Assembly: GCF_000003605.2 (NCBI RefSeq)
Contig: NW_003106344.1
Span: forward strand, 1-44,562
Direction of reading: 5' to 3'
DNA from: Saccoglossus kowalevskii
Taxonomy: Eukaryota > Hemichordata > Enteropneusta > Harrimaniidae
DNA length: 44,562 nt
Shown here in pieces: positions 1 through 44,334 of this stretch (positions within the stretch are counted from its first letter, which is position 1; each line of letters starts with the position of its first letter). A program made the translations under genes and the position numbers. A model generated the notes under the pieces. It saw only the letters and a program-made list of their open reading frames with translations. It was not told the origin of the DNA and ran no database searches.

Positions 1-215
1 GCTTACCCCACTCAATTAAAATGGATAAATTGCATCGTATGAGTATGAGTGTATTTGTTCTGTATATGTATTACTTTTAACTTATATTCGTACAATTATA
101 TATGAATTTAAATAAAGAGAACTAATATTAAAATTCCACGGTGTTTCTGACGCAAGTTGTATTGAACAAAATGCGGTTATCCTATTGAAAGTGCACTCAA
201 TTGGTTGTTTCATCT
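1..215 (+). other. Left-edge unit fragment (rearranged tail before T1)
   Basis: Bases 1-34 are the end of a tRNA-side spacer (attaaaatggataaattgc), joined to a Fox 3' tail (gtatgagtgtatttgttctg onward) with an AATAAA at about 112-117. The same junction occurs at about 2440 and 9260, so the window opens inside another tail-tRNA doublet. No Fox ORF lies here. Confidence 0.8.
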
Positions 216-315
216 TCTCCAGTGGCACAATCGGTTAGCGCGCCGTACTTATAAGGCAGTACTGCTCGGTTACAGAGTAATACGGAGGTTGTGAGTTCGA
301 GCCTCACCTGGGGAA
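216..315 (+). tRNA. T1: tRNA-Ile(UAU), intron-containing
   Basis: Acceptor TCTCCAG pairs with CTGGGGA (one G-U). The anticodon loop is CTTATA, a 26-base intron after position 37, then A. The anticodon stem CCGTA/TACGG is fully Watson-Crick, unlike most copies, which have TGCGG. The intron start reads AGGC rather than TGGC, a variant shared only with T19. A B box (GTTCGAGCC) and a downstream TTTT are present. The D stem has an A-C mismatch (GCAC/GCGC), common to the array. Confidence 0.88.
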
Positions 316-1111
316 TGAGTATGTTTTGAATCCACGAATTGGAGAATAATTGAATCGAAACACTTATGATCGCAAATTCCATTCGCGATCCAATCTCCAG
401 CATTTAGTTTCATCTAATTTAAATGACATCGATCGCCATTTATATGGTCGCAAAATACGTCGAATTTGAGTTAAAAGACCTGCTTAACCCCACTCAATTA
501 AAATGGATAAATGGCATCACAGCTGACGTATATATCTAACTATAATTGCATGCAATCCTATGAAGTGCTGTTTTTTTATTTTAATTACCCAGTGTTTACC
601 AAGCCTGCTAAAAATGTCCAGTGGTGATGCACTATTTAGGCAGAAGAATAAATGTCATTGACTTGCTCAAGATGGTTATATAGTTCTACGATTTTGAGGG
701 CGCTGTTTAGCAGACTGTTTGTTTGAGCGCTATCTTGTGATCGTTTACTGATTGGCAAATTGAAATTACGGATGATCTATGTTCATTTCAAGAATGATAT
801 TCAATAATTTTCACGTACATTACATTTCATTTATCCATGCTATAAAACAATAACCCAATACACTTTATATAGATTATGTAACAGGTGAGATATTTATGAA
901 AGTGCGAAGCACATGATATTACGGATAACACAATAGGTGAATTTGTTCGATTATCGCCATTAAGTGCTGTATTTTAATTAGGAGTTAATGTCATTTGTTT
1001 TCCTGCTCTCTGATTGGGTTATTTTGAATAATATGCAAATTTCAATGTGACCTATGGTCTACCTTGTTGACTCAAACCATTCTTAAATTCAAAAAAAATA
1101 CATCATTCGAA
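316..1111 (+). promoter_or_regulatory. Spacer and putative promoter of F1
   Basis: This is the standard spacer between a tRNA and the next Fox ATG. It holds a T-rich tract near 571, a perfect forkhead core site TGTTTAC at 593-599, a second GTTTAC at 743-748, a TATAAAA box at 841-847, and a consensus splice donor CAG|GTGAGA at 882-890. An inverted CCAAT (ATTGG) sits at 1013-1017. Where intact copies read ATGCAGATTTCAAGGTG, this copy reads ATGCAAATTTCAATGTG, so both possible AG acceptors near 1037 and 1046 are gone. The TATA box and donor suggest a short first exon and a 5' UTR intron of about 150 bases; this is inference. A uORF of 10 codons starts at 1054. Confidence 0.55.
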
Positions 1112-1938
1112 ATGACGATGCACAATCCAAGAGGTAACTTAATGTATGTGGCAGATGTTTACTCACGCACACAGCATATGTATGCCAATCCACCGTATAC
1201 CAGTAATTTCAACTCTCACAGTACATTGTCATGCATAGACCGACCGGCGTATAGCTTCGTAGCACTATCGTCTTGGCTATAAAGTCATACGCAGAACAGA
1301 GGGCTACATTGAAAGATATCTACCGCTATATAGAGACAACTTGTCCGTATTATCGTGTGCAGGGCCCTTGCTGGAAGAATTCAATCCGTCATAACTTCTC
1401 TTTGAACAAATGCTTCATCAAGAGTCCTCGTAGTATACATGCCCTGACTCACGGTCATTTCTGGAGACTAGCAGAGGGTTGGAAAGAAATGTTTGCTGAA
1501 AGCGACTTCCGCCGCCGTCGTCGAGGATATAAGAAATCCAATAACCACGAGTTTATAACAACTAACAGCCAAGCGAAGGAGGATTATATTGCGCGATATA
1601 AACCTGAAAGCACGCCGTCGTCGGTGGAGTCATGCAAGAAACAGACGCCAAATTACGTTTACTCGATTACACATAGCGAGAGAACACAAGAAAGACATGT
1701 AAACAGAAAACAGATTAGTGACTTTAGTATTGCCAAAATACTACGTTGTCAGTCGAAACGAAAAGCCGGCCACTGTGATGTATCGGACAATAAAATGATT
1801 AAGCGTGTTGGACGTATTGTTAGTAATGTCACAAAAGACACTGCGCGTGACATTCCTGGTCAATCATTCAATGCAAGTAGTCAGATATCTTCAATTCGAG
1901 TCATTTTGTATTACCCACCAGTTTCAAGAAAGTTTTAA
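1112..1938 (+). pseudogene. F1: forkhead gene, frameshifted
   Basis: The ATG at 1112 opens the normal N-terminus, but one base is missing near 1264-1267 (cactatcg against cacttatcg in intact copies). The frame stops at 1282, a few residues into the forkhead domain. The remainder, with recognition helix, wing, basic run and eh1 motif, continues in another frame to the usual stop at 1938. Odd residues: Pro46Ala at the PPYSF start of the domain, His-Asn-Phe instead of His-Asn-Leu in helix 3, and Ile for Phe just before the eh1 motif. It is almost identical to F5 (6818 bases downstream), so the lesion was copied by duplication rather than arising twice. Its spacer has also lost the AG acceptor candidates. 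Confidence 0.92.
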
Positions 1939-1939
1939 T

Positions 1940-2050
1940 AATAAACAGTGCTGCTAAATATCAGCCACGTATGAGTGTATTTGTTCTGTATATGTATTAC
2001 TTTTAACTTATATTCGTACAATTATATATGAACCGTCAAATTTAAATAAA
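1940..2050 (+). terminator. Fox 3' UTR with two AATAAA signals (representative)
   Basis: In every unit the stop TAA runs directly into TAATAAA, so a first AATAAA begins 2 bases after the stop (1940-1945 here). A second AATAAA lies about 107 bases after the stop (2045-2050). The second is the more plausible cleavage signal, since the first would leave almost no 3' UTR. The T1-to-T27 tRNA genes begin about 100 bases after the second signal. Confidence 0.5.
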
Positions 2051-2149
2051 GAGAACTAATATTAAAATTCCACGATATTTCTGACGCAAGTTGTATTGAA
2101 CAAAATGCGGTTATCCTATTGAAAGTGCACTCAATTTTTTGTTTCATCT

Positions 2150-2249
2150 TCCCCTGTGGCACAAACGGTTAGCACGCCGTACTTATATGGCAGTACTGCT
2201 CTGTTACTGAGTAATGCGGAGGTTGTGAGTTCGAGCCTCACCTGGGGAA
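2150..2249 (+). tRNA. T2: tRNA-Ile(UAU), decaying copy
   Basis: Same fold and 26-base intron as the others, but the acceptor reads TCCCCTG against CTGGGGA (a T-T clash), the D loop reads ACAAACGG, and the D stem has another change (GCACG). Probably a weak or dead copy. T7 is its near twin. Confidence 0.75.
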
Positions 2250-2632: not shown

Positions 2633-2748
2633 TCTCCAGTGGCACAATCGGTTATCGCGCCAATCGGTTATCGCGCCGTACTTATATGGCAGTACTGCTC
2701 TGTTACTGAGTAATGCGGAGGTTGTGAGTTCGAGCCTCACCTGGGGAA
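2633..2748 (+). tRNA. T3: tRNA-Ile(UAU) pseudogene with D-arm duplication
   Basis: A 16-base stretch (caatcggttatcgcgc) is tandemly duplicated inside the D arm, making the gene 116 bases long. The anticodon loop, intron, T arm and acceptor are otherwise normal. The D arm cannot fold as in the other copies. The base change TTAT for TTAG in the D stem is shared with T8. Confidence 0.8.
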
Positions 2749-2934: not shown

Positions 2935-3762
2935 ATGACGATGCACAATCCAAGAGGTAACTTAATGTATGCTGCAGATGTTTACTCACGCACACAGCAT
3001 ATGTATGCCAATCCACCGTATACCAGTAATTTCAACTCTCACAGTACATTGTCATGCACAGACCGACCGCCGTATAGCTTCGTAGCGCTTATCGTCTTGG
3101 CTATAAGGTCATACGCGGAACAGAGGGCTACATTGAAAGATGTCTACCGCTATATAGAGACAACTTTTCCGTATTATCGTGTGAAGAGCCTTGGCTGGAA
3201 GAATTCAATCCGTCATAACCTCTCTTTGAACAATTGCTTCATCAAGAGTCCTCGTAGTATACATGACCTGACTCACGGTCATTTCTGGAGACTAGCAGAG
3301 GGTTGGAAAGAAATGTTTGCTGAAAGTGACTTCCGCCGCCGTCGTCGAGGATATAAGAAATCCAATAACCACGAGTTTATAACAACTAACAGCCAAGCGA
3401 ACGAGGATTATATTGCGCGATATAAACATGAAAGCACGCCGTCGTCGGTGGAGTCATGCAAGAAACAGACGCTAAATTACGTTTACTCGATTACACATAG
3501 CGAGAGAACACAAGAAAGACATGTAAACGGAAATGAGTTTAGTGACTTTAGTATTGCCAAAATACTACGTTGTCAGTCGAAACGAAAAGCCGGCCACTGT
3601 GATGTATCGGACAATAAAAGGATTAAACGTGTTGGACGTATTGTTAGTAATGTCACAAAAGACACTGCGCGTGACATTCCTGGCCAATCTTTCAATGCAA
3701 GTAGTCAGATATCTTCAATTCGAGTCATTTTGTATTACCCATCAGTTTCAAGAAAGTTTTAA
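2935..3762 (+). CDS. F2: forkhead transcription factor, 275 aa
   Basis: Sequence-specific DNA-binding protein of the Fox family, expected in the nucleus. Order of parts: N-terminal arm (1-43); forkhead domain about 44-142, starting [14 protein letters not shown]; helix 3 with [15 protein letters not shown] at 88-102, including the conserved base-contacting Asn90, Arg93 and His94; wing HGHFWRL; then a basic run DFRRRRRGYKK (132-142) likely to serve as wing 2 and NLS. A C-terminal FSIAKIL (205-211) matches the eh1 motif that recruits Groucho/TLE, so a repressor role is inferred. I chose the ATG at 2935, because the open frame extends upstream only to non-ATG codons. No introns. The Fox class is uncertain: the RRRR wing and eh1 fit a divergent FoxQ2-like or orphan class. 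The usual promoter is deleted upstream, so expression is doubtful. Confidence 0.9.
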   Translation: MTMHNPRGNLMYAADVYSRTQHMYANPPYTSNFNSHSTLSCTDRPPYSFVALIVLAIRSYAEQRATLKDVYRYIETTFPYYRVKSLGWKNSIRHNLSLNNCFIKSPRSIHDLTHGHFWRLAEGWKEMFAESDFRRRRRGYKKSNNHEFITTNSQANEDYIARYKHESTPSSVESCKKQTLNYVYSITHSERTQERHVNGNEFSDFSIAKILRCQSKRKAGHCDVSDNKRIKRVGRIVSNVTKDTARDIPGQSFNASSQISSIRVILYYPSVSRKF

Positions 3763-3973: not shown

Positions 3974-4073
3974 TCCCCAGTGGCACAATCGGTTAGCGCG
4001 CCGTACTTATATGGCAGTACTGCTCTGTTACTGAGTAATGCGGAGGTTGTGAGTTCGAGCCTCACTTGGGGAA
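3974..4073 (+). tRNA. T4: tRNA-Ile(UAU), intron-containing
   Basis: Acceptor TCCCCAG/TTGGGGA keeps seven pairs with one G-U. Anticodon loop CTTATA|A, stem CCGTA/TGCGG, B box and downstream TTTT are all present. Looks usable apart from the array-wide D-stem A-C mismatch. Confidence 0.88.
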
Positions 4074-5996: not shown

Positions 5997-6822
5997 ATGA
6001 CGATGCACACTCCAAGAGGTAACTTAATGTATGCTGCAGATATTTACTCACGCACGCAGCATATGTATGCCAATCCACCGTATACCAGTATTTTCAACTC
6101 TCACAGTACATTGTCATGCATAGACCGACCGCCGTATAGCTTCGTAGCACTTATCGTCTTGGCTATAAGGTCATACGCGAAACAGAGGGCTACATTGAAA
6201 GATATATACCGCTATATAGAGACAACTTTTCCGTATTATCGTGTGACGAGCCCTGGCTGGAAGAATTCAATCTGTCATAACCTCTCTTTGAACAATTGCT
6301 TCATCAAGAGTCTCGTAGTATACATGACGTGACTCACGGTCATTTTTGGAGACTAGCAGAGGGTTGGAAAGAAATGTTTGCTGAAAGCGACTTCCGCCCC
6401 GTCGTCGAGGATATAAGACATCCAATAACCACGAGTATATAACAACTAACAGCCAAGCGAACGAGGATTGTATTGCGCGATATAAACCTGAAATCACGCC
6501 GTCGTCGGTGGAGTCATGCAAGAAACAGACGCCAAATTACGTTTACTCGATTACACATAGCGAGAGAACACAAGAAAGACATGTAAACGGAAAACAGTTT
6601 AGTGACTTTAGTATTGCCAAAATACTACGTTGTCAGTCGAAACGAAAAGCCGGCCACTGTGATGTATCGGACAATAAAAGGATTAAACGTGTTGGACGTA
6701 TTGTTAGTAATGTCACAAAAGACACTGCGCGTGACATTCCTAGTCAATCTTTCAATGCAAGTAGTCAGATATCTTCAATTCGAGTCATTTTGTATTACCC
6801 ACCAGTTTCAAGAAAGTTTTAA
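5997..6822 (+). pseudogene. F4: forkhead gene (type A), frameshifted
   Basis: The frame from the ATG at 5997 is normal (type A marks: HTPRG, SIFNSH, YAKQR) until one C is lost at about 6311 (agtctcg for agtcctcg), giving a stop at 6332 within the forkhead domain after helix 3. A second one-base loss near 6396 hits the Arg run (cgccccgtc). The remaining frame with eh1 motif is open to 6822. Helix 3 also has Arg93Cys (tctgtcat). Upstream promoter absent. Confidence 0.92.
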
Positions 6823-7025: not shown

Positions 7026-7125
7026 TCTCCAGTGGCACAATCGGTTAGCGCGCCGTACTTATATGGCAGTACTGCTCTGTTACTGAGTAATGCGGAGGTT
7101 GTGAGTTCGAGCCTCACCTGGGGAA
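7026..7125 (+). tRNA. T6: tRNA-Ile(UAU), intron-containing
   Basis: Acceptor TCTCCAG/CTGGGGA with one G-U. Anticodon stem CCGTA/TGCGG, loop CTTATA|A, 26-base intron, B box and TTTT downstream are all intact. Confidence 0.9.
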
Positions 7126-7929: not shown

Positions 7930-8756
7930 ATGACGATGCACAATCCAAGAGGTAACTTAATGTATGTGGCAGATGTTTACTCACGCACACAGCATATGTA
8001 TGCCAATCCACCGTATACCAGTAATTTCAACTCTCACAGTACATTGTCATGCATAGACCGACCGGCGTATAGCTTCGTAGCACTATCGTCTTGGCTATAA
8101 AGTCATACGCAGAACAGAGGGCTACATTGAAAGATATCTACCGCTATATAGAGACAACTTGTCCGTATTATCGTGTGCAGGGCCCTTGCTGGAAGAATTC
8201 AATCCGTCATAACTTCTCTTTGAACAAATGCTTCATCAAGAGTCCTCGTAGTATACATGCCCTGACTCACGGTCATTTCTGGAGACTAGCAGAGGGTTGG
8301 AAAGAAATGTTTGCTGAAAGCGACTTCCGCCGCCGTCGTCGAGGATATAAGAAATCCAATAACCACGAGTTTATAACAACTAACAGCCAAGCGAAGGAGG
8401 ATTATATTGCGCGATATAAACCTGAAAGCACGCCGTCGTCGGTGGAGTCATGCAAGAAACAGACGCCAAATTACGTTTACTCGATTACACATAGCGAGAG
8501 AACACAAGAAAGACATGTAAACAGAAAACAGATTAGTGACTTTAGTATTGCCAAAATACTACGTTGTCAGTCGAAACGAAAAGCCGGCCACTGTGATGTA
8601 TCGGACAATAAAATGATTAAGCGTGTTGGACGTATTGTTAGTAATGTCACAAAAGACACTGCGCGTGACATTCCTGGTCAATCATTCAATGCAAGTAGTC
8701 AGATATCTTCAATTCGAGTCATTTTGTATTACCCACCAGTTTCAAGAAAGTTTTAA
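7930..8756 (+). pseudogene. F5: forkhead gene, frameshifted twin of F1
   Basis: Same missing T as F1 (near 8083), the same Pro46Ala, Asn-Phe-Ser and Lys changes in helix 3, and the same stop at 8100. The two partial frames give the same protein as F1 over the ORF. With the flanking T2/T3-T7/T8 doublets also matching, a block of about 2.7 kb was duplicated over about 6.8 kb. Confidence 0.93.
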
Positions 8757-8967
8757 TAATAAACAGTGCTGCTAAATATCAGCCACGTATGAGTGTATTT
8801 GTTCTGTATATGTATTACTTTTAACTTATATTCGTACAATTATATATGAACCGTCAAATTTAAATAAAGAGAACTAATATTAAAATTCCACGATATTTCT
8901 GACGCAAGTTGTATTGAACAAAATGCGGTTATCCTATTGAAAGTGCACTCAATTTTTTGTTTCATCT

Positions 8968-9067
8968 TCCCCTGTGGCACAAACGGTTAGCACGCCGTAC
9001 TTATATGGCAGTACTGCTTTGTTACTGAGTAATGCGGAGGTTGTGAGTTCGAGCCTCAACTGGGGAA
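8968..9067 (+). tRNA. T7: tRNA-Ile(UAU), decaying copy
   Basis: Twin of T2 with acceptor TCCCCTG and D loop AAACGG. It also carries CTCAA in the T stem and TTTG in the intron. Several stems are mispaired, so it is likely dead. Confidence 0.72.
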
Positions 9068-9450
9068 TGAGTATGTGTTGAATCCACGAATTGGAGAATA
9101 ATTGAATCGAAACATTTCCAAATCGCAAATTCCATTCGCGATCCAATCTCCAGCATTTAGTTTCATCTAATTTAAATGACATCGATCGCCATTTATATGG
9201 TCGCAAAATACGTCGAATTTGAGTTAAAAGACCTGCTTAACCCCACTCAATTAAAATGGATAAATTGCATCGTATGAGTATGAGTGTATTTGTTCTGTAT
9301 ATGTATTACTTTTAACTTATATTCGTACAATTATATATGAATTTAAATAAAGAGAACTAATATTAAAATTCCACGATATTTCTGACGCAAGTTGTATTGA
9401 ACAAAATGCGGTTGTTCTATTGAAAGTGCACTCAATTGGTTGTTTCATCT
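9068..9450 (+). repeat. Tail-tRNA doublet between T7 and T8
   Basis: Same structure and same junction as 2250-2632 (spacer start joined to a Fox 3' tail near 9268), with the same 483-base T-to-T distance. No gene seen. Confidence 0.85.
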
Positions 9451-9550
9451 TCTCCAGTGGCACAATCGGTTATCGCGCCGTACTTATATGGCAGTACTGC
9501 TCTGTTACTGAGTAATGCGGAGGTTGTGAGTTCGAGCCTCACCTGGGGAA
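9451..9550 (+). tRNA. T8: tRNA-Ile(UAU), D-stem variant
   Basis: Acceptor, anticodon arm, intron and T arm are normal. The D arm ends TTATCGC instead of TTAGCGC, adding a second mismatch to the D stem. It is the unduplicated parent form of T3. Confidence 0.8.
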
Positions 9551-10348
9551 TGAGTATGTTTTGAATCCACGAATTGGAGAATAATTTGAATCGAAACACT
9601 TATGATCGCAAATTCCATTCGCGATCCAATCTCCAGCATTTAGTTTCATCTAATTTAAATGACATAGATCGCCATTTATATGGTCGCATAATACGTCGAA
9701 TTTGAGTTAAAAGACCTGCTTAACCCGACTCAATTAAAATGGATAAATTGCATCACAGCTGACGTATATATCTAACTATAATTGCATGCAATCCTATGAA
9801 GTGCTGTTTTTTTTTACTTTATTTACCCAGTGTTTACCAAGCCTGCTAAAATCGTCAAGTGGTAATGCACTATTTAGGCAGAAGAATAAATGTCATTGAC
9901 TTGCTCAAGACGGTTATATAGTTTTACGATTTTGAGGGCGCTGTTTAGCAGACTGTTTGTTTGGGCGCTATCTTGTGATAGTTTACTGATTGGCAAATTG
10001 AAAAAAGGATGATCTATGTTCATTTCAAGAATGATATTCAATAATTTTCACGTACATTACATTTCATTTATCCATTCTATAAAACAATAACCCAATACAC
10101 TTTATATAGATTATGTAACACGTGAGATATTTATGAAAGTGCGAAGCACATGATATTACGGATAACACAATAGTTGAATTTGTTCGATTATCGCCATTAA
10201 GTGCCGTATTTTAATTAGGGGTTAATGGCATTTGTTTTCCTGCTCTCTGATTGGGTTATTTTGAATAATATGCAGATTTCAAGGTGACTTATGGTCTACC
10301 TTGTTGATTCAAACCATTCTTAAATTCACAAGAAATACATCATTCGAG
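9551..10348 (+). promoter_or_regulatory. Spacer and putative promoter of F6
   Basis: Forkhead site TGTTTAC at 9831-9837 and TATAAAA at 10078-10084. The donor reads CAC|GTGAG (about 10119), with the last exon base changed from G to C but the GT kept. AG candidates (ATGCAG, TTTCAAG) are present just before a uORF ATG. Confidence 0.55.
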
Positions 10349-11176
10349 ATGACGATGCACACTCCAAGAGGTAACTTAATGTATGCTGCAGATATTTACT
10401 CACGCACGCAGCATATGTATGCCAATCCACCGTATACCAGTATTTTCAACTCTCACAGTACATTGTCATGCATAGACCGACCGCCGTATAGCTTCGTAGC
10501 ACTTATCGTCTTGGCTATAAGGTCATACGCGAAACAGAGGGCTACATTGAAAGATATATACCGCTATATAGAGACAACTTTTCCGTATTATCGTGTGACG
10601 AGCCCTGGCTGGAAGAATTCAATCCGTCATAACCTCTCTTTGAACAATTGCTTCATCAAGAGTCCTCGTAGTATACATGACCTGACTCACGGTCATTTCT
10701 GGAGACTAGCAGAGGGTTGGAAAGAAATGTTTGCTGAAAGCGACTTCCGCCGCCGTCGTCGAGGATATAAGAAATCCAATAACCACGAGTTTATAACAAG
10801 TAACAGCCACGCGAACGAGGATTATATTGCGCGATATAAACCTGAAAGCACGCCGTCGTCGGTGGAGTCATGCAAGAAACAGACGCCAAATTACGTTTCC
10901 TCGATTACACATAGCGAGAGAACACAAGAAGGACATGTAAACGGAAAACAGTTTAGTGACTTTAGTATTGCCAAAATACTACGTTGTCAGTCGAAACGAA
11001 AAGCGGGCCACTGTGATGTATCGGACAATAAAAGGATTAAACGTGTTGGACGTATTGTTAGTAATGTCACAAAAGACACTGCGCGTGACATTCCTGGTCA
11101 ATCTTTCAATGCAAGTAGTCAGATATCTTCAATTCGAGTCATTTTGTGTTACCCACCAGTTTCAAGAAAGTTTTAA
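10349..11176 (+). CDS. F6: forkhead transcription factor (type A), 275 aa
   Basis: Full-length type A copy. It differs from F2 at Asn5Thr, Val16Ile, Asn32Ile, Glu62Lys and Lys84Thr (RVTSPGWKN). Helix 3 contact residues Asn90, Arg93 and His94 are conserved, the basic run is intact, and the eh1 FSIAKIL is intact. The C-terminal tail has Cys for Tyr (VILCYPP), shared with F18 and F20. The ATG at 10349 is followed by a second ATG two codons later. It has its own TATA box and forkhead site; the splice donor is slightly weakened. Confidence 0.92.
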   Translation: MTMHTPRGNLMYAADIYSRTQHMYANPPYTSIFNSHSTLSCIDRPPYSFVALIVLAIRSYAKQRATLKDIYRYIETTFPYYRVTSPGWKNSIRHNLSLNNCFIKSPRSIHDLTHGHFWRLAEGWKEMFAESDFRRRRRGYKKSNNHEFITSNSHANEDYIARYKPESTPSSVESCKKQTPNYVSSITHSERTQEGHVNGKQFSDFSIAKILRCQSKRKAGHCDVSDNKRIKRVGRIVSNVTKDTARDIPGQSFNASSQISSIRVILCYPPVSRKF

Positions 11177-11387: not shown

Positions 11388-11487
11388 TCCCCAGTGGCAC
11401 AATCGGTTAGCGCGCCGTACTTATATGGCAGTACTGCTCTGTTACTGAGTAATGCGGAGGTTGTGAGTTCGAGCCTCACCTGGGGAA
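11388..11487 (+). tRNA. T9: tRNA-Ile(UAU), intron-containing
   Basis: Consensus copy for the array: acceptor TCCCCAG/CTGGGGA with seven Watson-Crick pairs, A at the discriminator, anticodon stem CCGTA/TGCGG, 26-base intron at 37/38, T stem GTGAG/CTCAC. A run of TTTT follows about 10 bases after the end. Confidence 0.93.
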
Positions 11488-12283: not shown

Positions 12284-13111
12284 ATGACGATGCACACTCC
12301 AAGAGGTAACTTAATGTATGCTGCAGATATTTACTCACGCACGCAGCATATGTATGCCAATCCACCGTATACCAGTATTTTCAACTCTCACAGTACATTG
12401 TCATGCATAGACCGACCGCCGTATAGCTTCGTAGCACTTATCGTCTTGGCTGTAAGGTCATACGCGAAACAGAGGGCTACATTGAAAGATATCTACCGCT
12501 ATATAGAGACAACTTTTCCGTATTATCGTGTGACGAGCCCTGGCTGGAAGAATTCAATCCGTCATAACCTCTCTTTGAACAATTGCTTCATCAAGAGTCC
12601 TCGTAGTATACATGACCTGACTCACGGTCATTTCTGGAGACTAGCAGAGGGTTGGAAAGAAATGTTTGCTGAAAGCGACTTCCGCCGCCGTCGTCGAGGA
12701 TATAAGAAATCCAATAACCACGAGTTTATAACAACTAACAGCCAAGCGAACGAGGATTATATTGCGCGATATAAATCTGAAAGCACGCCGTCGTCGGTGG
12801 AGTTATGCAAGAAAAAGACGCCAAATTACGTTTCCTCGATTACACATAGCGAGAGAACACAAGAAAGACATGTAAACGGAAATGAGTTTAGTGACTTTAG
12901 TATTGCCAAAATACTACGTTGTCAGTCGAAACGAAAAGCCGGACACTGTGATGTATTGGATAATAAAAGGATTAAACGTGTTGGACGTATTGTTAGTAAT
13001 GTCACAAAAGACACTGCGCGTGACATTCCTGGCCAATCTTTCAATGCAAGTAGTCAGATATCTTTAATTCGAGTTATTTTGTATTACCCACCAGTTTCAA
13101 GAAAGTTTTAA
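12284..13111 (+). CDS. F7: forkhead transcription factor (type A/B hybrid), 275 aa
   Basis: The N-terminal half is type A ([18 protein letters not shown], with Ile57Val shared only with F8). The C-terminal half carries marks otherwise seen in type B (CKKKTPNY, NGNEFSDF, DVLDNK), so the gene looks recombinant with a switch after the forkhead domain. Recognition-helix contacts and eh1 are intact. Complete promoter-like spacer upstream. Confidence 0.92.
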   Translation: MTMHTPRGNLMYAADIYSRTQHMYANPPYTSIFNSHSTLSCIDRPPYSFVALIVLAVRSYAKQRATLKDIYRYIETTFPYYRVTSPGWKNSIRHNLSLNNCFIKSPRSIHDLTHGHFWRLAEGWKEMFAESDFRRRRRGYKKSNNHEFITTNSQANEDYIARYKSESTPSSVELCKKKTPNYVSSITHSERTQERHVNGNEFSDFSIAKILRCQSKRKAGHCDVLDNKRIKRVGRIVSNVTKDTARDIPGQSFNASSQISLIRVILYYPPVSRKF

Positions 13112-13322: not shown

Positions 13323-13436
13323 TCCCCAGTGGCACAATCGGTTAGCGCGCCGTACTTATATGGCAGTACTTATATGGCAGTACTGCTCTGTTACTGAGTA
13401 ATGCGGAGGTTGTGAGTTCGAGCCTCATCTGGGGAA
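13323..13436 (+). tRNA. T10: tRNA-Ile(UAU) with 14-base duplication at the anticodon
   Basis: The stretch tatatggcagtact occurs twice in tandem, so the anticodon CTTATA appears twice and the apparent intron grows to 40 bases. Acceptor and D arm are normal; the T stem has CTCAT (a G-U). Splicing by the usual geometry may fail or choose either copy. Confidence 0.8.
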
Positions 13437-19258: not shown

Positions 19259-19292
19259 TGAGTATGTTTTGAATCCACGAATTGAAGAATAA

Positions 19293-30079: not shown

Positions 30080-30179
30080 TCCCCAGTGGCACAATCGGTT
30101 AGCGCGCCGTACTTATAAGGCAGTACTGCTCGGTTACAGAGTAATACGGAGGTTGTGAGTTCGAGCCTCACCTGGGGAA
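30080..30179 (+). tRNA. T19: tRNA-Ile(UAU), fully paired anticodon stem
   Basis: Carries the T1 variant: CCGTA/TACGG stem without the usual U-G, intron beginning AGGC and containing CGGTTACAGAG. Here the acceptor is TCCCCAG/CTGGGGA with seven Watson-Crick pairs, making it one of the best-paired copies in the window. Confidence 0.92.
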
Positions 30180-32012: not shown

Positions 32013-32112
32013 TTCCCAGTGGCACAATCGGTTAGCGCGCCGTACTTATATGGCAGTACTGCTCTGTTACTGAGTAATGCGGAGGTTGTGAGTTCGAGCC
32101 TCACCTGGGGAA
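32013..32112 (+). tRNA. T20: tRNA-Ile(UAU), intron-containing
   Basis: Same variant as T11 (acceptor TTCCCAG, one U-G), otherwise consensus with TTTT downstream. Confidence 0.9.
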
Positions 32113-33948: not shown

Positions 33949-34048
33949 TCCCCAGTGGCACAATCGGTTAGCGCGCCGTACTTATATGGCAGTACTGCTC
34001 TGTTACTGAGTAATGCGGAGGTTGTGAGTTCGAGCCTCACCTGGGGAA
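33949..34048 (+). tRNA. T21: tRNA-Ile(UAU), intron-containing
   Basis: Consensus copy; all stems as in T9. Confidence 0.93.
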
Positions 34049-34846: not shown

Positions 34847-35671
34847 ATGACGATGCACACTCCAAGAGGTAACTTAATGTATGCTGCAGATATTTACTCA
34901 CGCACGCAGCATATGTATGCCAATCCACCGTATACCAGTATTTTCAACTCTCACAGTACATTGTCATGCATAGACCGACCGCCGTATAGCTTCGTAGCAC
35001 TTATCGTCTTGGCTATAAGGTCATACGCGAAACAGAGGGCTACATTGAAAGATATCTACCGCTATATAGAGACAACTTTTCCGTATTATCGTGTGACGAG
35101 CCCTGGCTGGAAGAATTCAATCCGTCATAACCTCTCTTTGAACAATTGCTTCATCAAGAGTCCTCGTAGTATACATGACCTGACTCACGGTCATTTCTGG
35201 AGACTAGCAGAGGGTTGGAAAGAAATGTTTGCTGAAAGCGACTTTCGCCGCCGTCGTCGAGGATATAAGAAATCCAATAACCACGAGTTTATAACAACTA
35301 ACAGCCACGCGAACGAGGATTATATTGCGCGATATAAACCTGAAAGCACGCCGTCGTCGGTGGAGTCATGCAAGAAACAGACGCCAAATTACGTTTCCTC
35401 GATTACACATAGCGAGAGAACACAAGAAGGACATGTAAACGGAAAACAGTTTAGTGACTTTAGTATTGCCAAAATACTACGTTGTCAGTCGAAACGAAAA
35501 GCCGGCCACTGTGATGTATCGGACAATAAAGGATTAAACGTGTTGGACGTATTGTTAGTAATGTCACAAAAGACACTGCGCGTGACATTCCTGGCCAATC
35601 TTTCAATGCAAGTAGTCAGATATCTTCAATTCGAGTCATTTTGTATTATCCACAGTTTCAGAAAGTTTTAA
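34847..35671 (+). CDS. F19: forkhead protein with internal frameshifted stretch, 274 aa
   Basis: Type A domain and eh1 intact. It shares the lost A near 35528 and the lost C near 35653 with F8 and F17, and has a third loss (tttcagaaag for tttcaagaaag) near 35660. The three losses restore the original frame, so it ends ...HSFRKF at the ordinary stop. About 40 residues before the end are read in shifted frames. This looks like the F8/F17 lineage with one further event. Confidence 0.78.
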   Translation: MTMHTPRGNLMYAADIYSRTQHMYANPPYTSIFNSHSTLSCIDRPPYSFVALIVLAIRSYAKQRATLKDIYRYIETTFPYYRVTSPGWKNSIRHNLSLNNCFIKSPRSIHDLTHGHFWRLAEGWKEMFAESDFRRRRRGYKKSNNHEFITTNSHANEDYIARYKPESTPSSVESCKKQTPNYVSSITHSERTQEGHVNGKQFSDFSIAKILRCQSKRKAGHCDVSDNKGLNVLDVLLVMSQKTLRVTFLANLSMQVVRYLQFESFCIIHSFRKF

Positions 35672-35882: not shown

Positions 35883-35982
35883 TCCCCAGTGGCACAATCG
35901 GTTAGCGCGCCGTACTTATATGGCAGTACTGCTCTGTTACTGAGTAATGCGGAGGTTGTGAGTTCGAGCCTCACCTGGGGAA
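35883..35982 (+). tRNA. T22: tRNA-Ile(UAU), intron-containing
   Basis: Consensus copy with full pairing outside the D stem. Confidence 0.93.
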
Positions 35983-36779: not shown

Positions 36780-37606
36780 ATGACGATGCACACTCCAAGA
36801 GGTAACTTAATGTATGCTGCAGATATTTACTCACGCACGCAGCATATGTATGCCAATCCACCGTATACCAGTATTTTCAACTCTCACAGTATATTGTCAT
36901 GCATAGACCGACCGCCGTATAGCTTCGTAGCACTTATCGTCTTGGCTATAGTTCATACGCGAAACAGAGGGCTACATTGAAAGATATCTACCGCTATATA
37001 GAGACAACTTTTCCGTATTATCGTGTGACGAGCCCTGGCTGGAAGAATTCAATCCGTCATAACCTCTCTTTGAACAATTGCTTCATCAAGAGTCCTCGTA
37101 GTATACATGACCTGACTCACGGTCATTTCTGGAGACTAGCAGAGGGTTGGAAAGAAATGTTTGCTGAAAGCGACTTCCGCCGCCGTCGTCGAGGATATAA
37201 GAAATCCAATAACCACGAGTTTATAACAACTAACAGCCACGCGAACGAGGATTATATTGCGCGATATAAACCTGAAAGCACGCCGTCGTCCGTGGAGTCA
37301 TGCAAGAAACAGACGCCAAATTACGTTTCCTCGATTACACATAGCGAGAGAACACAAGAAGGACATGTAAACGGAAAACAGTTTAGTGACTTTAGTATTG
37401 CCAAAATACTACGTTGTCAGTCGAAACGAAAAGCGGGCCACTGTGATGTATCGGACAATAAAAGGATTAAACGTGTTGGACGTATTGTTAGTAATGTCAC
37501 AAAAGACACTGCGCGTGACATTCCTGGTCAATCTTTCAATGCAAGTAGTCAGATATCTTCAATTCGAGTCATTTTGTGTTACCAACCAGTTTCAAGAAAG
37601 TTTTAA
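36780..37606 (+). pseudogene. F20: forkhead gene (type A), frameshifted
   Basis: The frame is broken at ggctatagttcat (about 36948), where intact copies read ggctataaggtcat: one base lost and one changed, just after helix 1. The first frame stops at 36980; the second, with helix 3, basic run and eh1, is open to 37606. C-terminus VILCYQP. Everything else is intact, so the break is probably recent. Confidence 0.9.
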
Positions 37607-37817: not shown

Positions 37818-37917
37818 TCCCCAGTGGCACAATCGGTTAGCGCGCCGTACTTATATGGCAGTGCTGCTCTGTTACTGAGTAATGCGGAGGTTGTGAGTTC
37901 GAGCCTCACCTGGGGAA
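37818..37917 (+). tRNA. T23: tRNA-Ile(UAU), intron-containing
   Basis: Consensus apart from one intron base (gcagtgctg). Confidence 0.92.
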
Positions 37918-38715: not shown

Positions 38716-39543
38716 ATGACGATGCACACTCCAAGAGGTAACTTAATGTATGCTGCAGATGTATACTCACGCACGCAGCATATGTATGCCAATCCACCGT
38801 ATACCAGTATTTTCAACTCTCACAGTACATTGTCATACATAGACTGACCGCCGTATAGCTTCGTAGCACTTATCGTCTTGGCTATAAGGTCATACGCGAA
38901 ACAGAGGGCTACATTGAAAGATATCTACCGCTATATAGAGACAACTTTTCCGTATTATCGTGTGACGAGCCCTGGCTGGAAGAATTCAATCCGTCACAAC
39001 CTCTCTTTGAACAATTGCTTCATCAAGAGTCCTCGTAGTATACATGACCTGACTCACGGTCATTTCTGGAGACTAGCAGAGGGTTGGAAAGAAATGTTTG
39101 CTGAAAGCGACTTCCGCCGCCGTTGTCGAGGATATAACAAATCCAATAACCACGAGTTTACAACAACTAACAGCCAAGCGAACGAGGAATATATTGCGCG
39201 ATATAAACCTGAAAGCACGCCGTCGTCGGTGGAGTTATGCAAGAAACAGACGCCAAATTACGTTTCCTCGATTACACATAGCGAGAGAACACAAGAAGGA
39301 CATGTAAACGGAAAACAGTTTAGTGACTTTAGTATTGCCAAAATACTACGTTGTCAGTCGAAACGAAAAGCCGGCCACTGTGATGTATTGGATAATAAAA
39401 GGATTAAACGTGTTGGACGTATTGTTAGTAATGTCACACAAGACAGTGCGCGTGACATTCCTGGCCAATCTTTCAATGCAAGTAGTCAGATATCTTCAAT
39501 TCGAGTCATTTTGTATTACCCACCAGTTTCAAGAAAGTTTTAA
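38716..39543 (+). pseudogene. F21: forkhead gene (type A) with nonsense codon
   Basis: Codon 44, the Arg that opens the forkhead domain (RPPYSF), is TGA at 38845-38847. No frameshift: the rest is open to 39543. Further changes Arg137Cys and Lys141Asn hit the basic run. Leaky translation or a start at a later codon would lose little of the domain, but no good ATG lies near. C-terminal half has type B marks (DVLDNK). Confidence 0.9.
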
Positions 39544-39754: not shown

Positions 39755-39854
39755 TCCCCAGTGGCACAATCGGTTAGCGCGCCGTACTTATATGGCAGTA
39801 CTGCTCTGTTACTTAGTAATGCGGAGGTTGTGAGTTCGAGCCTCACCTGGGGAA
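39755..39854 (+). tRNA. T24: tRNA-Ile(UAU), intron-containing
   Basis: Consensus copy with one intron change (ttacttag). Confidence 0.92.
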
Positions 39855-40659: not shown

Positions 40660-41487
40660 ATGACGATGCACAATCCAAGAGGTAACGTAATGTATGCTGC
40701 AGATGTTTACTCACGCATACAGCATATGTATGCCAATCCACCGTATACCAGTAATTTCAACTCTCACAGTACATTGTCATGCGTAGACCGACCGCCGTAT
40801 AGCTTCGTAGCACTTATCGTCTTGGCTATAAGGTCAAACGCGGAACAGAGGGCTACATTGAAAGATATCTACCGCTATATAGAGACAACTTTTCCGTATT
40901 ATCGGGTGAAGAGCCCTGGCTGGAAGAATTCAATCCGTCAAAACCTCTCTGTAAACAATTGCTTCATCAAGAGTCCTCGTAGTATACATGACCTGACGCA
41001 CGGTCATTTCTGGAGACTAGCAGAGGGTTGGAAAGAAATGTTTTCTGAAAACGACTTCCGCCGCCGTCGTCGAGGATATAAGAAATCCAATAACCACGAG
41101 TTTATAACAACGAACAACCAAGCGAACGAGGATTATATTACCCGATATAAACCTGAAAGCCCGTCGTCGTCGGTGGAGTCATGCAAGAAACATACGCCAA
41201 ATTACGTTTCCTCGATTACACGTAGCGAGAGAACACAAGAAAGACATGTAAACGGAAAACAGTTCAGTGACTTTAGTATTGCCAAAATACAATGCTGTCA
41301 GTCGAAACGAAAAGCCGGCCTCTGTGATGTATCGGACAATAAAATGATTAAACATGTTGGACGTATTGTTCGTAATGACACAAAAGACACTGGGCGTGAC
41401 ATTCCTGGCCAATCTTTCAATGCAAGTAGTCAAATTTCTTCAAGTCGAGTCATTTTGTATTATCCACCAGTTTCAAGAAAGCTTTAA
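40660..41487 (+). CDS. F22: forkhead protein (type C, His94Gln), altered eh1, 275 aa
   Basis: Full frame with the type C helix 3 (Gln94, Val98). The eh1 motif reads FSIAKIQ: the last Leu211 is Gln, which should weaken Groucho binding. Nearby His221Leu, Arg-to-Met in the KRIK stretch and Ala-to-Gly in TGRDIPG show general drift. Ends SRKL as F14. Its spacer has lost the forkhead core site, so both the output motif and the putative autoregulatory input are damaged. Confidence 0.88.
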   Translation: MTMHNPRGNVMYAADVYSRIQHMYANPPYTSNFNSHSTLSCVDRPPYSFVALIVLAIRSNAEQRATLKDIYRYIETTFPYYRVKSPGWKNSIRQNLSVNNCFIKSPRSIHDLTHGHFWRLAEGWKEMFSENDFRRRRRGYKKSNNHEFITTNNQANEDYITRYKPESPSSSVESCKKHTPNYVSSITRSERTQERHVNGKQFSDFSIAKIQCCQSKRKAGLCDVSDNKMIKHVGRIVRNDTKDTGRDIPGQSFNASSQISSSRVILYYPPVSRKL

Positions 41488-41699
41488 TAATAAGCCGTGC
41501 TGCTAAATATCAGCTACGTATGAGCGTATTTGTTTTGTATATGTATTACTTTTAACTTATATTCGTACAATTATATATGAACCGTCAAATTTAAAATAAA
41601 GAGAACTAATATTAAAATTCCCCGACATTTCTGACGCAAGTTGTATTAAACAAAATGCGGTTATCCTATTGAAAGTGCACTCAATTGGTTGTTTCATCT

Positions 41700-41806
41700 T
41701 CCCCAGTGGCACAATCGGTTAGAGCGCCCTACGTATATGGCAGTACTGCTCTGTTACTGAGTAATGCGTAATGCGAAGTTTGTGAGTTCGAGCCTCACCT
41801 GTGGAA
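41700..41806 (+). tRNA. T25: tRNA-Ile pseudogene (type C)
   Basis: It has the 7-base taatgcg duplication of T18, and the base before the anticodon (U33) is G (ctacgtata). The anticodon stem and acceptor are mispaired. Not functional by appearance. Confidence 0.75.
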
Positions 41807-42178
41807 TGAGTATGTTTTGGGTCCACGAATTGGAGAATAATTGAATCGAAACATTTCCAAATCGCAAATTCCATTCGCAATCCAATCTCCAGCATTTATT
41901 TCATCTAATTTAAATGACATCGATCGCCATTTTTAGTGGTCACAAAATTGCAAATACGTCGAATTTGAGTTAGACACCTGATTAACCCGATTCAATTAAA
42001 ATGGATATTTATTCTGTATATGTATTACTTTTAACTTATATTCGAGCAATTATATATGAACCGTCAAATTCAAAATAAAGAGAACTAATATTAAAATTCC
42101 ACGATATTTCTGACGCAAGTTGTATTGAACAAAATGCGGTTATCCTATTGAAAGTGTACTCAATTGGTTGTTTCATCT
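41807..42178 (+). repeat. Tail-tRNA doublet between T25 and T26
   Basis: The start of a spacer (to attaaaatggata near 42007) is joined to a Fox 3' tail (tttattctgtatatg). Same kind of event as at 2250-2632 but with a different join, so it arose separately. T-to-T distance 479. No ORF. Confidence 0.83.
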
Positions 42179-42277
42179 TCCCCGTGGCACAATCGGTTAG
42201 CGCGCCGTACTTATATGGCAGTACTGCTCTGTTACTGAGTAATGCGGAGATTGTGAGTTCGAGCCTCACCTGTGGAA
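42179..42277 (+). tRNA. T26: tRNA-Ile(UAU), acceptor deletion
   Basis: One A is missing from the acceptor 5' strand (TCCCCG), and the 3' strand reads CTGTGGA. Anticodon arm, intron and T arm are normal. Likely inactive. Confidence 0.75.
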
Positions 42278-43076
42278 TGAGTATGTTTTGGATCCACGAA
42301 TTGGAGAATAATTGAATCGAAACATTTCCCAATCGCAAATTCCATTCGCAATCCAATCTCTAGCATTTATTTCATCTAATTTAAATGACATCGATCGCCA
42401 TTTTTATGGTCACAAAATTGCAAATACGTCGAATTTGAGTTAAACACCTGATTAACCAAGATTCAATGGATAAATGGCATCACAGCTGACGTATAAATCT
42501 AACGATAATTGCTTGCAATCCTGTGAAGTGCTGTTTTTTTACTTATTTATTTACCCAATGTTTACAAAGCCTGCTAAAAACGTCCAGTGGTGATGCATTA
42601 TTCAGGTAGAATAATAGATGTCATTGACTTGCTTAAGAGGGTTATATAATTCTACGATTTTGAGGGCGCTGTTAAGCAGACTGTTTGTTGGAGCGCCATC
42701 TTGTGATCGTTTAATGATTGCCATATTGAAATCACGAATGATCTATGCTCATTTCATGAATGACATTCAATAATTTTCACGTACATTACATTTCATTTAT
42801 GCATGCTATAAAACAATAACCCAATACACTTTATATAGATTATGTAACAGATGAGATATTTATGAAAGTGCGAAGCACATGTTATTACGTATATCACAAT
42901 AGGTGAATTTGTTCGATTATCGCCAATAAGTGCTGATTGTAATTAGGGGTTAATGGCATTTGATTTCCTGCTCTCTGATTGGGTTATTTTGAATAATATG
43001 CAGATTTCAAGGTGACTTAAGTTCTACCTTGTTTACTCAAACCATTCATAAATTCACAAAAAATACATCATTCGAG
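42278..43076 (+). promoter_or_regulatory. Spacer of F23, donor GT lost
   Basis: Forkhead site TGTTTAC at 42559-42565 and TATAAAA at 42807-42813 are kept. The donor reads CAG|ATGAG at 42848-42855, so the GT is gone. AG candidates kept; no uORF ATG. Confidence 0.55.
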
Positions 43077-43904
43077 ATGACGATGCACAATCCAAGAGGT
43101 AACTTGATGTATGCTGCAGATGTTTACTCACGCATACAGCATATGTATGCCAATCCACCGTATACCAGTAATTTCAACTCTCACAGTACATTGTCATGCA
43201 TAGACCGACCGCCGTATAGCTTCGTAGCACTTATCGTCTTGGCTATAAGGTCAAACGCGGAACAGATGGCTACATTGAAAGATATCTACCGCTTTATAGA
43301 GACAACTTTTCCGTATTATCGTATGACGAGCCCTGGCTGGATGAATTCAATCCGTCATAACCTCTCTTTGAACAATTGCTTCATCAAGAGTCCTCGTAGT
43401 ATACATGACCTGACTCACGGTCATTTCTGGTGACTAGCAGAGGTTTGGAAAGAAATGTTTTCTGAAAGCGACTTCCGTCGCCGTCGTCGAGGATATAAGA
43501 AATCCAATAACCACGAGTTTATAACAACGAACAGCCAAGCGAACGAGGATTATATTGCCCGATATAAACCTGCAAGCACGTCGTCGTCGGTGGAGTCATG
43601 CAAGAAACAGACGCCAAATTACGTTTCCTCGATTACACGTAGCGAGAGAACACAAGAAAGTCATGTAAACGGAAAACAGTTTAGTGACTTTAGTATTGCC
43701 AAAATACTATGTTGTCAGTCGAAACGAAAAGCCAGCCACTGTGATGTATCGGACAATAAAAGGATTAAACATGATGGACGTATTGTTCGTAATGACACAA
43801 AAGACACTGCGCGTGACATTCCTGGCCAATCTTTCAATGCAAGTAGTCAGATATCTTCAATTCGAGTCATTTTGTATTACCCACCAGTTTCAAGAAAGTT
43901 TTAA
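43077..43904 (+). pseudogene. F23: forkhead gene (type C-like) with nonsense codon
   Basis: The frame runs from the ATG at 43077 to a TGA at 43431-43433 (codon 119, normally AGA after HFW), inside the wing. Past it the same frame is open to 43904 with basic run and eh1. Helix 3 is WMNSIRHNLS: His94 and Leu98 are in the ancestral state although flanking marks are type C. Asp replaces Val in the KHDGRIV stretch. As the last unit before the unique flank it may escape homogenisation. Confidence 0.9.
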
Positions 43905-44116
43905 TAATAAACCGTGCTGCTAAATATCAGCTACGTATGAGTGTATTTGTTCTGTATATGTATTACTTTAAACTTATATTCGTACAATTATATATGAACC
44001 GTCAAATTTAAAATAAAGAGAACTAATATTAAAATTCCACGACATTTCTGACGCAAGTTGTATTAAACAAAATGCGGTTATCCTATTGAAAGTGCACTCG
44101 ATTGGTTGTTTCATCT

Positions 44117-44216
44117 TCCCCAGTGGCACAATCGGTTAGCGCGCCGTACTTATATGGCAGTACTGCTCGGTTACTGAGCAATGCGGAGGTTGTGAGTTCA
44201 AGCCTCACCTGGGGAA
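44117..44216 (+). tRNA. T27: tRNA-Ile(UAU), last copy of the array
   Basis: Acceptor TCCCCAG/CTGGGGA fully paired, anticodon stem CCGTA/TGCGG, T loop TTCAAGC (a normal B-box variant), intron with cggttactgagca. TTTT follows at about 44225. Looks usable. Confidence 0.91.
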
Positions 44217-44334
44217 TGAGTATGTTTTAAATCGCAGTAATAACCAATTTAAAGTGAAGTTTCCATTCATGAAATGCCTGCTTGGCGTGTTGGAGCTATA
44301 TAATGTAGCGGCACTCGATAACTTGCTGGTATGA
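44217..44334. other. Right boundary of the array and 3' flank of the neighbour gene
   Basis: Similarity to the other units ends at about 44228 (gtatgtttt|aaatcgcag). The rest, up to the stop of the minus-strand ORF, would be the 3' UTR of that gene. I see no AATAAA on the minus strand here. Confidence 0.65.

Follow-up and report, generated by a model that had tools for sequence, protein, structure and literature searches.

The system most similar to the locus analysed here is the human D4Z4 macrosatellite, a large tandem array in which every unit carries the transcription factor retrogene DUX4, according to the available parts of the reports (PMC5849414, PMC3616921). Tandem units bearing tRNA genes have likewise been described as the human 1q23.3 tRNA tandem repeat (PMC4041453) and the Arabidopsis SYY tRNA cluster (PMC12308677), with no transcription factor gene named in those units in the portions of these accounts available to us. 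Lineage-specific multiplication of Fox genes is known from expansions of the FoxQ2 class (PMC9539403), with as many as 13 genes in one annelid and one to four in hemichordates (PMC12828049). As far as these sources describe them, the expanded FoxQ2 genes evolve fast, some encode a C-terminal EH-i-like motif, and they are few separate genes rather than a macrosatellite.

The window, which is the whole of Saccoglossus kowalevskii contig NW_003106344.1 (C112; 44,562 bp), contains 23 copies of a Fox gene (22 full length and one truncated), arranged head to tail with an intron-bearing tRNA-Ile(UAU) gene in units of about 1.94 kb. Most units are 1932–1953 bp long, and the off-size ones measure 1130, 1823, 2417, 2419, and 3143 bp. 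The array match ends at position 44233, within five bases of the end placed at 44228 by the original prediction, and the left end of the contig falls inside the array. Like DUX4 in D4Z4, as far as that array is described in the cited reports, a factor gene without coding introns is present in nearly every unit. Unlike D4Z4, the factor is a Fox protein rather than a double homeobox protein, the 1.94-kb unit includes a tRNA gene, the host is an invertebrate deuterostome, and about half of the full-length factor copies have broken frames. The array, its flank, and its Fox copies are as follows.

1..44233, + strand, tandem array of ~1.94-kb Fox and tRNA units; left side open at the contig end, right edge at 44233
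44234..44562, no strand, 329 bp of DNA outside the array, 3' of the right edge
1112..1938, + strand, Fox copy, broken frame
2935..3762, + strand, Fox copy, intact, 275 codons
4867..5694, + strand, Fox copy, broken frame; 1130-bp unit without tRNA
5997..6822, + strand, Fox copy, broken frame
7930..8756, + strand, Fox copy, broken frame; coding part identical to the copy at 1112
10349..11176, + strand, Fox copy, intact
12284..13111, + strand, Fox copy, intact
14237..15130, + strand, Fox copy, open for 297 codons; frameshifted tail, forkhead domain and EH1-like motif retained
16170..17002, + strand, Fox copy, broken frame
18120..18947, + strand, Fox copy, intact
19556..20144, + strand, Fox copy, truncated, only the 3' part
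21263..22090, + strand, Fox copy, intact
23208..24101, + strand, Fox copy, open for 297 codons
25149..25976, + strand, Fox copy, intact, His94 to Gln
27090..27917, + strand, Fox copy, intact, His94 to Gln; reference copy for comparisons
29041..29868, + strand, Fox copy, intact, His94 to Gln
30976..31869, + strand, Fox copy, open for 297 codons
32910..33737, + strand, Fox copy, intact
34847..35671, + strand, Fox copy, open for 274 codons, altered tail
36780..37606, + strand, Fox copy, broken frame
38716..39543, + strand, Fox copy, early stop
40660..41487, + strand, Fox copy, intact, His94 to Gln
43077..43904, + strand, Fox copy, in-frame stop
44335..44562, - strand, 75-codon open frame leaving the contig end; includes DFSISNIL, an EH1-like stretch similar to the one in the array Fox

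The complete 275-codon frame is retained by 10 of the 22 full-length copies, and four more are open with an altered tail (297, 297, 297, and 274 codons); the original prediction had arrived at the same two counts. The minus-strand frame beyond the array edge, which matched no Pfam family, may represent the tail of a further regulator gene.

The same array occurs on five further contigs, bearing out the predicted amplification of at least 23-fold and its extension beyond the left edge. The six contigs together span 168,178 bp and carry about 80 units, as estimated from 79 copies of a promoter-side element; we infer that they represent a single locus. Copy counts, overlaps, and selection statistics cover 138,687 bp of these contigs and include 57 full-length Fox copies with at least 93 per cent identity to the reference copy over about 828 bp, which excludes chance. 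An assembly artefact, in which a few real copies or uncollapsed haplotypes were multiplied by the assembler, would be compatible with the position of the contig ends, most of which lie within the array (9 of the 10 examined among 12; the tenth, the right end of the window, is the array edge), and with inter-contig stretches at 99 per cent identity, one of 2673 bp and four of 1.0–1.2 kb. However, copies differ by 3.8 per cent on average and by up to 6.9 per cent, and no inter-contig stretch of at least 3 kb at 99 per cent identity was found within the 138,687 bp. The short length of the longest near-identical overlap argues against duplicate contigs, and we regard an artefact as extremely improbable.

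We consider it probable that the array is a gene-bearing macrosatellite. It would have started as a chromosomal segment with a divergent Fox gene, whose coding part lacked an intron, and an intron-bearing tRNA-Ile(UAU) gene, amplified head to tail and then reshaped by unequal exchange and conversion, as the unit structure and the similarity of neighbouring units suggest. Adjacent units are less distant from each other than non-adjacent ones (means of 0.038 and 0.052; 0 of 500 permutations), as predicted by unequal exchange. By contig, this neighbour similarity has a P-value of 0.012 in the window and of 0.40 in contig C3072 alone. The correlation between coding and spacer distances is loose (r = 0.22).

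Selection on the protein appears nearly absent in most copies. Among the 57 full-length copies, 27 are intact and 30 are broken. Distinct variants comprise 225 nonsynonymous and 66 synonymous changes versus 3.10:1 expected from the spacer mutation spectrum (ratio of 1.10). Under a codon model, dN/dS is 1.03 in broken and 0.73 in intact copies (P-value = 0.036 against 1), with 0.65 for the forkhead domain of intact copies alone (P-value = 0.12). For variants found in at least two intact copies, the ratio is 0.62 (P-value = 0.032), and 10 stops are observed versus about 15 expected. One frameshift is common to 12 copies and another to 8, so broken types have also been amplified. Judged by these substitution patterns, copies seem to drift almost neutrally, with weak constraint in the intact ones that leaves room for some working copies; at most a minority would have been kept working through weak selection. 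Dosage, one of the meanings originally offered for the array, therefore has little sequence support, given near-neutral copies, 30 of 57 broken frames, and the amplified frameshifts. Of the meanings offered, a non-adaptive or selfish macrosatellite fits best, and some working copies may persist within it.

The encoded protein is, by domain match and predicted winged-helix fold, a Fox protein. Two long array proteins match the Pfam Forkhead family with 100.9 and 102.8 bits (cut-off of 27), while a third, short array frame that lacks the domain has no match to it. The forkhead domain fold is predicted confidently and matches solved Fox–DNA structures: 114 PDB chains are matched at E ≤ 0.001, and the best 50 of the 114 are all Fox proteins, including a few under older names that we take to be such. 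The EH1-like motif FSIAKIL is found near the C-terminus in 26 of 27 intact copies, and the forkhead and EH1-like strings share one frame in 34 of 57 copies. In the same genome, pattern searches find EH1-like motifs in FoxQ1 and FoxI pieces and in none of four FoxQ2-like pieces, which are partial. If expressed, intact copies would encode a winged-helix repressor with a Groucho-type motif. For most of the time, silencing of the array is probable.

In the forkhead domain tree, built with reference domains of the Fox classes, the array Fox is weakly nearest to FoxQ2 (support of 90/66) on a branch with a length of about 1. Placements with FoxL1 (approximately unbiased [AU] test; P-value = 0.40), FoxI (0.24), FoxL2 (0.11), and FoxF (0.24) are not rejected, and FoxQ1 is borderline (0.053). 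Placements with FoxD and FoxA are rejected (P-values of 0.010 and 0.0005). On this very long branch, with several classes fitting, the array Fox is an orphan. FoxA, B, C, D, E, F, G, I, L1, L2, Q1, and Q2 genes, as classified by the reference domains, lie elsewhere in the genome, and the earlier designation of the array gene as a developmental Fox gene goes too far. This set of Fox genes, together with the gene order and genetic code of the mitochondrion, agrees with the hemichordate Saccoglossus as the source. The description of the array gene as intronless holds only for the coding part; its 5'UTR may have an intron.

Regulatory-looking sequence is also conserved. The promoter-side element occurs 21 times in the window, and its 79 genomic copies all lie on the six array contigs; it ranks third among 768 spacer windows in conservation, which is unusually high. 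The poly(A) signal is unusually conserved too, being kept in 35 of 35 units.

26992..27021, + strand, example of the 30-bp promoter-side element, 68 bp upstream of a Fox ATG

Maintenance of the array for a functional multicopy factor, whose many copies would provide germline or early embryo with a DUX4-like burst of Fox repressor, would account for these conserved elements, for the 27 intact copies with their reduced dN/dS, and for the retained FSIAKIL motif and predicted fold. We nevertheless find it unlikely, since the ratio is near 1 over all copies and in broken ones, and the EH1 stretch has low variation in broken but not in intact copies. In addition, the available part of a survey of Fox genes in S. 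kowalevskii, which drew on ESTs and genome traces, gives 23 Fox genes and no such gene.

Also weighing against a functional factor are changes at Asn90 and His94 of the recognition helix, presumably the usual base-contacting positions. Asn90 is present in 44 of 57 copies and Lys90 in 13; His94 is present in 45 and Gln94 in 12. One of the two positions is altered in 19 of 27 intact versus 6 of 30 broken copies (Fisher P-value = 0.00017, with copies counted as independent). Because three types coexist (both usual residues, Lys90, or Gln94) and intact copies are mostly contact-changed, the array might be read as a DUX4-like, tandem-encoded Fox regulator and a nursery of altered DNA-binding specificities, which we judge distinctly unlikely. 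We counted as points against macrosatellite drift the dN/dS below 1 in intact copies, the shortage of stops, the joint strings in 34 of 57 copies, the conserved poly(A) signal and 30-mer, and the neighbour result for C3072.

The tRNA copies of the window are listed below.

216..315, + strand, tRNA-Ile(UAU)-type gene with intron (Rfam)
2150..2249, + strand, tRNA copy (Rfam)
2661..2748, + strand, extra tRNA copy, partial (blastn only)
3974..4073, + strand, tRNA copy (Rfam)
7026..7125, + strand, tRNA copy (Rfam)
8787..9754, + strand, doubled block of ~483 bp with tRNAs at 8968–9067 (blastn) and 9451–9550 (Rfam)
11388..11487, + strand, tRNA copy (Rfam)
13323..13436, + strand, tRNA copy with internal 14-bp duplication (Rfam)
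15274..15373, + strand, tRNA copy (Rfam)
17214..17313, + strand, tRNA copy (Rfam)
19162..19258, + strand, tRNA copy under the Rfam threshold (blastn only)
20358..20457, + strand, tRNA copy (Rfam)
22303..22402, + strand, tRNA copy (Rfam)
24245..24344, + strand, tRNA copy (Rfam)
26188..26287, + strand, tRNA copy (Rfam)
28130..28236, + strand, tRNA copy, diverged (Rfam)
30080..30179, + strand, tRNA copy, top Rfam score of 49.4 bits (Rfam)
32013..32112, + strand, tRNA copy (Rfam)
33949..34048, + strand, tRNA copy (Rfam)
35883..35982, + strand, tRNA copy (Rfam)
37818..37917, + strand, tRNA copy (Rfam)
39755..39854, + strand, tRNA copy (Rfam)
41527..42467, + strand, doubled block of ~479 bp with tRNAs at 41700–41806 (diverged, blastn) and 42178–42277 (Rfam)
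44117..44216, + strand, final tRNA copy, adjoining the array edge (Rfam)

An intron-bearing tRNA-Ile(UAU) was correctly recognized by the original prediction, but its presence "in each unit" is true only of nearly every unit: two blocks are doubled (8787–9754 and 41527–42467), a partial extra copy lies at 2661–2748, and the 1130-bp unit from 4867 has none. Twenty-two Rfam tRNA matches in the window exceed the gathering score, and the anticodon arm reads CUUAUA, that is, UAU, with an intron present. ARAGORN reports 21 or 22 tRNA genes in the window, according to the options chosen; it puts the intron elsewhere, and its anticodon labels are therefore mixed. Both exons equal those of the tRNA-Ile(UAU) gene outside the array in 6 of 24 full-span window copies, and in 25 of the 73 full-span tRNAs of the array the exons are identical to this solo gene. 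All seven acceptor pairs (G-U allowed) are formed in 54 of 73, and TTTT follows within 25 bp in 71 of 73. Part of the copies thus combine an Rfam match, UAU, an intron, and a complete acceptor stem.

The tRNA itself could drive the array, either by supplying tRNA-Ile(UAU) or by acting as a boundary element, and Fox would then be a passenger; a boundary role has been proposed for the human tRNA tandem repeat, according to the accessible part of that report (PMC4041453). Consistent with this, 64 of 67 genomic matches to the tRNA 5'-half lie in the array (one is the solo gene, and two apparently belong to another tRNA), the downstream TTTT is nearly always kept, and diversity within the intron is lower than around it (π = 0.021). 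The mature part, however, is no better conserved than the Fox coding part (π of 0.034 vs 0.037), only the 25 copies equal the solo gene, and that gene exists elsewhere. We consider a tRNA-driven array highly unlikely; under the preferred macrosatellite reading, selection on the tRNA, as on the protein, would be nearly absent in most copies.

Compared with the 1q23.3 and SYY repeats, as far as these are described, the array shares tandem tRNA-bearing units and differs in having one, often decayed, intron-bearing tRNA-Ile(UAU) per unit alongside a factor gene. Set beside D4Z4 and the 1q23.3 repeat, the array stands out by joining a Fox gene and a tRNA gene in one unit; in agreement with the original prediction, no described array of this composition was found among the titles and abstract openings listed in the literature searches. 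Transcription factor genes within macrosatellites are best known from DUX4 and D4Z4, and a hemichordate Fox example would show the arrangement arising from unrelated factor families. When Fox genes are counted in draft genomes, arrays of this kind can be missed or inflated. The pairing of a Pol II gene with a Pol III gene in one unit makes a natural test of array maintenance. Such an example would also open an accessible marine embryo to the question of whether arrays of this type are silenced, switched on at genome activation, or simply parasitic.

In the assembly examined (572 Mb in 4830 contigs), the window is the whole of one contig (C112; 44,562 bp), and its bases 1–44233 form a single head-to-tail array on the plus strand, with units mostly 1932–1953 bp long. 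An ordinary unit contains an 828-bp Fox coding region, a putative poly(A) signal, a tRNA with an intron, and a spacer. The putative signal, AATAAAG, is situated 107 bp 3′ of the Fox stop codon and is present in 35 of 35 aligned units. The window contains 23 Fox copies, 22 of full length and one truncated; 10 are intact (complete 275-codon frame) and four more are open with altered tails, which bears out the original prediction of an at least 23-fold Fox amplification with ten full frames and four open ones; 22 tRNAs score above the Rfam threshold. Before the ATG, there are a TATA-like string at unit position 1668, a donor-like CAGGTGAG at 1709, and an acceptor-like ATATGCAG at 1858. The donor- and acceptor-like strings make a 5′UTR intron of about 150 bp possible; the conservation of the upstream splice-site, TATA-like, and CCAAT-like strings is not clearly above that of their surroundings.

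The array extends over several contigs. In a genome-wide protein search with the array Fox, in which the best 140 of 180 candidates were scored, close Fox copies were located on six contigs (C112, C3072, C4502, C2214, C3756, and C434) with a summed length of 168,178 bp, and the remaining matches among those 140 were one lone fragment on another contig (C153) and otherwise Fox genes at 37–49 per cent identity. A 30-bp element positioned 68 bp 5′ of the Fox ATG has 79 matches at three or fewer mismatches (58 exact, 19 with one mismatch, and two with two), all of them on the same six contigs. Of the 12 ends of these contigs, the nine that were tested lie within the array, and the right end of C112 is an edge; at the starts of C2214 and C3756, which are outside the sequence analyzed at copy level, there are tRNA and Fox matches within 262 and 470 bp. 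The copy-level analysis covers 138,687 of the 168,178 bp. It yielded 57 Fox copies of full length; another 26 pieces are partial, some of them because of gaps in coverage. Duplicate contigs hardly inflate this count, because stretches of 99 per cent identity between contigs in the analyzed sequence reach only 2673 bp, followed by four of 1.0–1.2 kb. The C153 match was rejected as an array edge, as it is a single isolated 551-bp fragment amid unrelated DNA (6000 bp examined). This fragment (locus L043, bases 1446–1995) is 94 per cent identical to the array, and the surrounding DNA resembles a degenerate minisatellite.

Neighboring units are more similar to each other than distant ones (0.038 vs. 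0.052 across all contigs; 0 of 500 permutations), a pattern that holds in C112, but not in C3072 alone. Two consecutive 1811-bp units in C434, together with doubled 480-bp blocks that are also present in the array, are expected traces of unequal exchange. Distances in the 5′ coding part are loosely correlated with those in the upstream spacer (r = 0.22), and distances in the tRNA block show no detectable correlation with those in the spacer (r = 0.11). Because these distances barely track each other, we regard the units as mosaics.

The forkhead domain of the array Fox spans residues 44–138, and is predicted at fair to high confidence (70–91 per ten-residue block over residues 41–130). The predicted domain matches Fox–DNA structures, and confidence is low elsewhere in the model. 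A C-terminal FSIAKIL, which is EH1-like, is present in 26 of the 27 intact copies. In a phylogeny of 34 forkhead domains, the array Fox is located on a branch of approximately one change per site, weakly placed beside FoxQ2 (support 90/66). Constrained groupings with FoxD or FoxA were rejected, whereas those with FoxL1, FoxI, FoxL2, or FoxF were not, and FoxQ1 was borderline. We do not accept membership in FoxQ2 and regard the array Fox as an orphan Fox.

The match to the array ends at window position 44233, 17 bp past a tRNA, and the 329 bp beyond have no match in the array. This is the one edge found, and a single-copy founder of the array was not found. The flank contains the following feature:

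44335–44562, minus strand, open frame (75 codons) truncated by the contig end, with the EH1-like stretch KDFSISNILGCSPKK

This stretch resembles KQFSDFSIAKILRCQSKR of the array Fox, with 10 of 18 residues identical (E = 4e-5 in a single comparison). Of 2000 shuffles, 3 reached the score against the array Fox C-terminus and 15 did so against the full-length protein; other Fox pieces score 18–36 in the same comparison, vs. 44–55 for the array Fox. No Pfam domain was detected in the flanking frame. Because EH1-like motifs are short and recurrent, we do not claim homology to the array Fox; the frame may encode the C-terminal end of a further regulator, in a gene that faces the array, which we treat as a lead rather than a finding.

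Two kinds of test point to a Fox coding part that evolves near neutrality. Among the 57 copies, the coding variants comprise 225 nonsynonymous and 66 synonymous changes, 10 stops, and one lost stop; relative to the expectation from the spacer mutation spectrum, the nonsynonymous-to-synonymous ratio is 1.10 (0.96 in the forkhead domain). Frame-shifting lengths (not multiples of three) are found in 24 of the 25 distinct aligned coding indels; one indel is common to 12 copies and another to eight. Under a codon model, dN/dS is 1.03 in copies broken by a frameshift or stop (29 distinct of 30) and 0.73 in the 27 intact copies. The latter value differs from 1 (P-value = 0.036), whereas the value of 0.65 obtained for the forkhead part by itself does not (P-value = 0.12). 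Speaking against near neutrality, the ratio for variants present in at least two intact copies is 0.62 (P-value = 0.032), and the number of stop variants is lower than the roughly 15 expected; a weakly constrained subset of Fox copies is therefore possible. At 0.037, diversity in the coding part resembles that of the 500 bp 3′ of the stop codon (0.016–0.070 across windows) and is roughly half of the level in the upstream spacer at unit positions 1351–1550 (0.07–0.11). Unit positions 1341–1838 (approximately window 28430–28930) have about twice the diversity of the rest of the unit and are followed by a conserved 30-mer near the ATG. We dropped a reading of selection from low variation at the EH1-like motif, because the low variation is confined to broken copies and is not seen in intact ones.

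Asn90 and His94, both in the NSIRHNLS stretch of the recognition helix, are base-contacting residues in Fox proteins. The two positions differ among array subfamilies: Lys90 occurs in 13 and Gln94 in 12 of the 57 copies (codons 90 and 94, e.g. window 27357–27371). One or the other change is carried by 19 of 27 intact vs. 6 of 30 broken copies (Fisher's exact test, kinship among copies ignored; P-value = 0.00017). Because the copies are related, this excess may reflect two young clades rather than selection.

The commonest array tRNA has a mature part identical to that of a solo tRNA-Ile(UAU) gene on another contig (C810), which is the only other tRNA-Ile(UAU) among the matches listed by pattern and DNA searches (in the DNA search, the best 40 of 95 candidates were scored, and all 40 are in the array). 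The intron is approximately 40 bases long in the solo gene vs. approximately 26 in most array copies. The solo locus (L077, G000:C810:152708 region) was rejected as an array edge or founder, as it shares only the tRNA body, without array flank; no Fox on C810 is among the matches listed. Full-span array tRNAs in the analyzed sequence number 73, leaving out copies split by blastn, such as those with a 14-bp duplication. Their exons are identical to those of the solo gene in 25, all seven acceptor pairs are kept in 54, and TTTT follows within 25 bp downstream in 71. Diversity is 0.034 in tRNA exons, 0.037 in the Fox coding part, and 0.021 in the tRNA intron, so that the exons vary about as much as the coding part and the intron somewhat less. 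Some array copies could therefore be working tRNA genes, but the array as a whole is not kept at the standard of a tRNA gene. ARAGORN labels of Thr, His, and Ala on array tRNAs were attributed to intron misplacement. Elsewhere, a tRNA-like 5′ half (GTTTCTGTGGCGCAATCGG...) occurs twice, 2087 bp apart (G000:C4647:9217 and 11304), perhaps as a second small tRNA tandem repeat.

In the same assembly, FoxF, FoxC, and FoxL1 share one contig, and two FoxQ2 genes are 26 kb apart; the same linkage and FoxQ2 pair are reported for S. kowalevskii in the passages covered of the 2014 survey (PMC4077281). There are four FoxQ2-like genes (L081, L082, L085, and L086) vs. three in those passages (PMC4077281), and two FoxQ1-like genes (L083 and L084 on G000:C1049) are situated approximately 15 kb apart, one of them on a long branch. 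On the mitochondrial contig (17,037 bp), cox1 is on the strand opposite most genes, nad5 adjoins cob (nad1 and nad2 were named by our own reading of the sequence), and tRNA-Lys has the anticodon UUU. We take AAA to fall at conserved lysines and ATA at a cox2 isoleucine position. The parts covered of two mitochondrial papers describe, for S. kowalevskii, a COX1 inversion, a moved ND1 or ND2, and a code in which AUA is Ile and AAA is Lys, with tRNA-Lys UUU (PMC3121625, PMC2697986). The mitochondrial features agree with this description, and together with the Fox genes they point to Saccoglossus, very likely S. kowalevskii.

No Fox array with a tRNA and no Fox macrosatellite is among the titles and starts of abstracts listed in literature searches, and the array is not mentioned in the passages covered of the Saccoglossus survey of 23 Fox genes (PMC4077281). 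In the literature so covered, the array's closest counterparts are D4Z4 with its DUX4 gene and tandem repeats of tRNA genes. We therefore class the Fox and tRNA array among gene-bearing macrosatellites, as a real and unusual one with a putative function.
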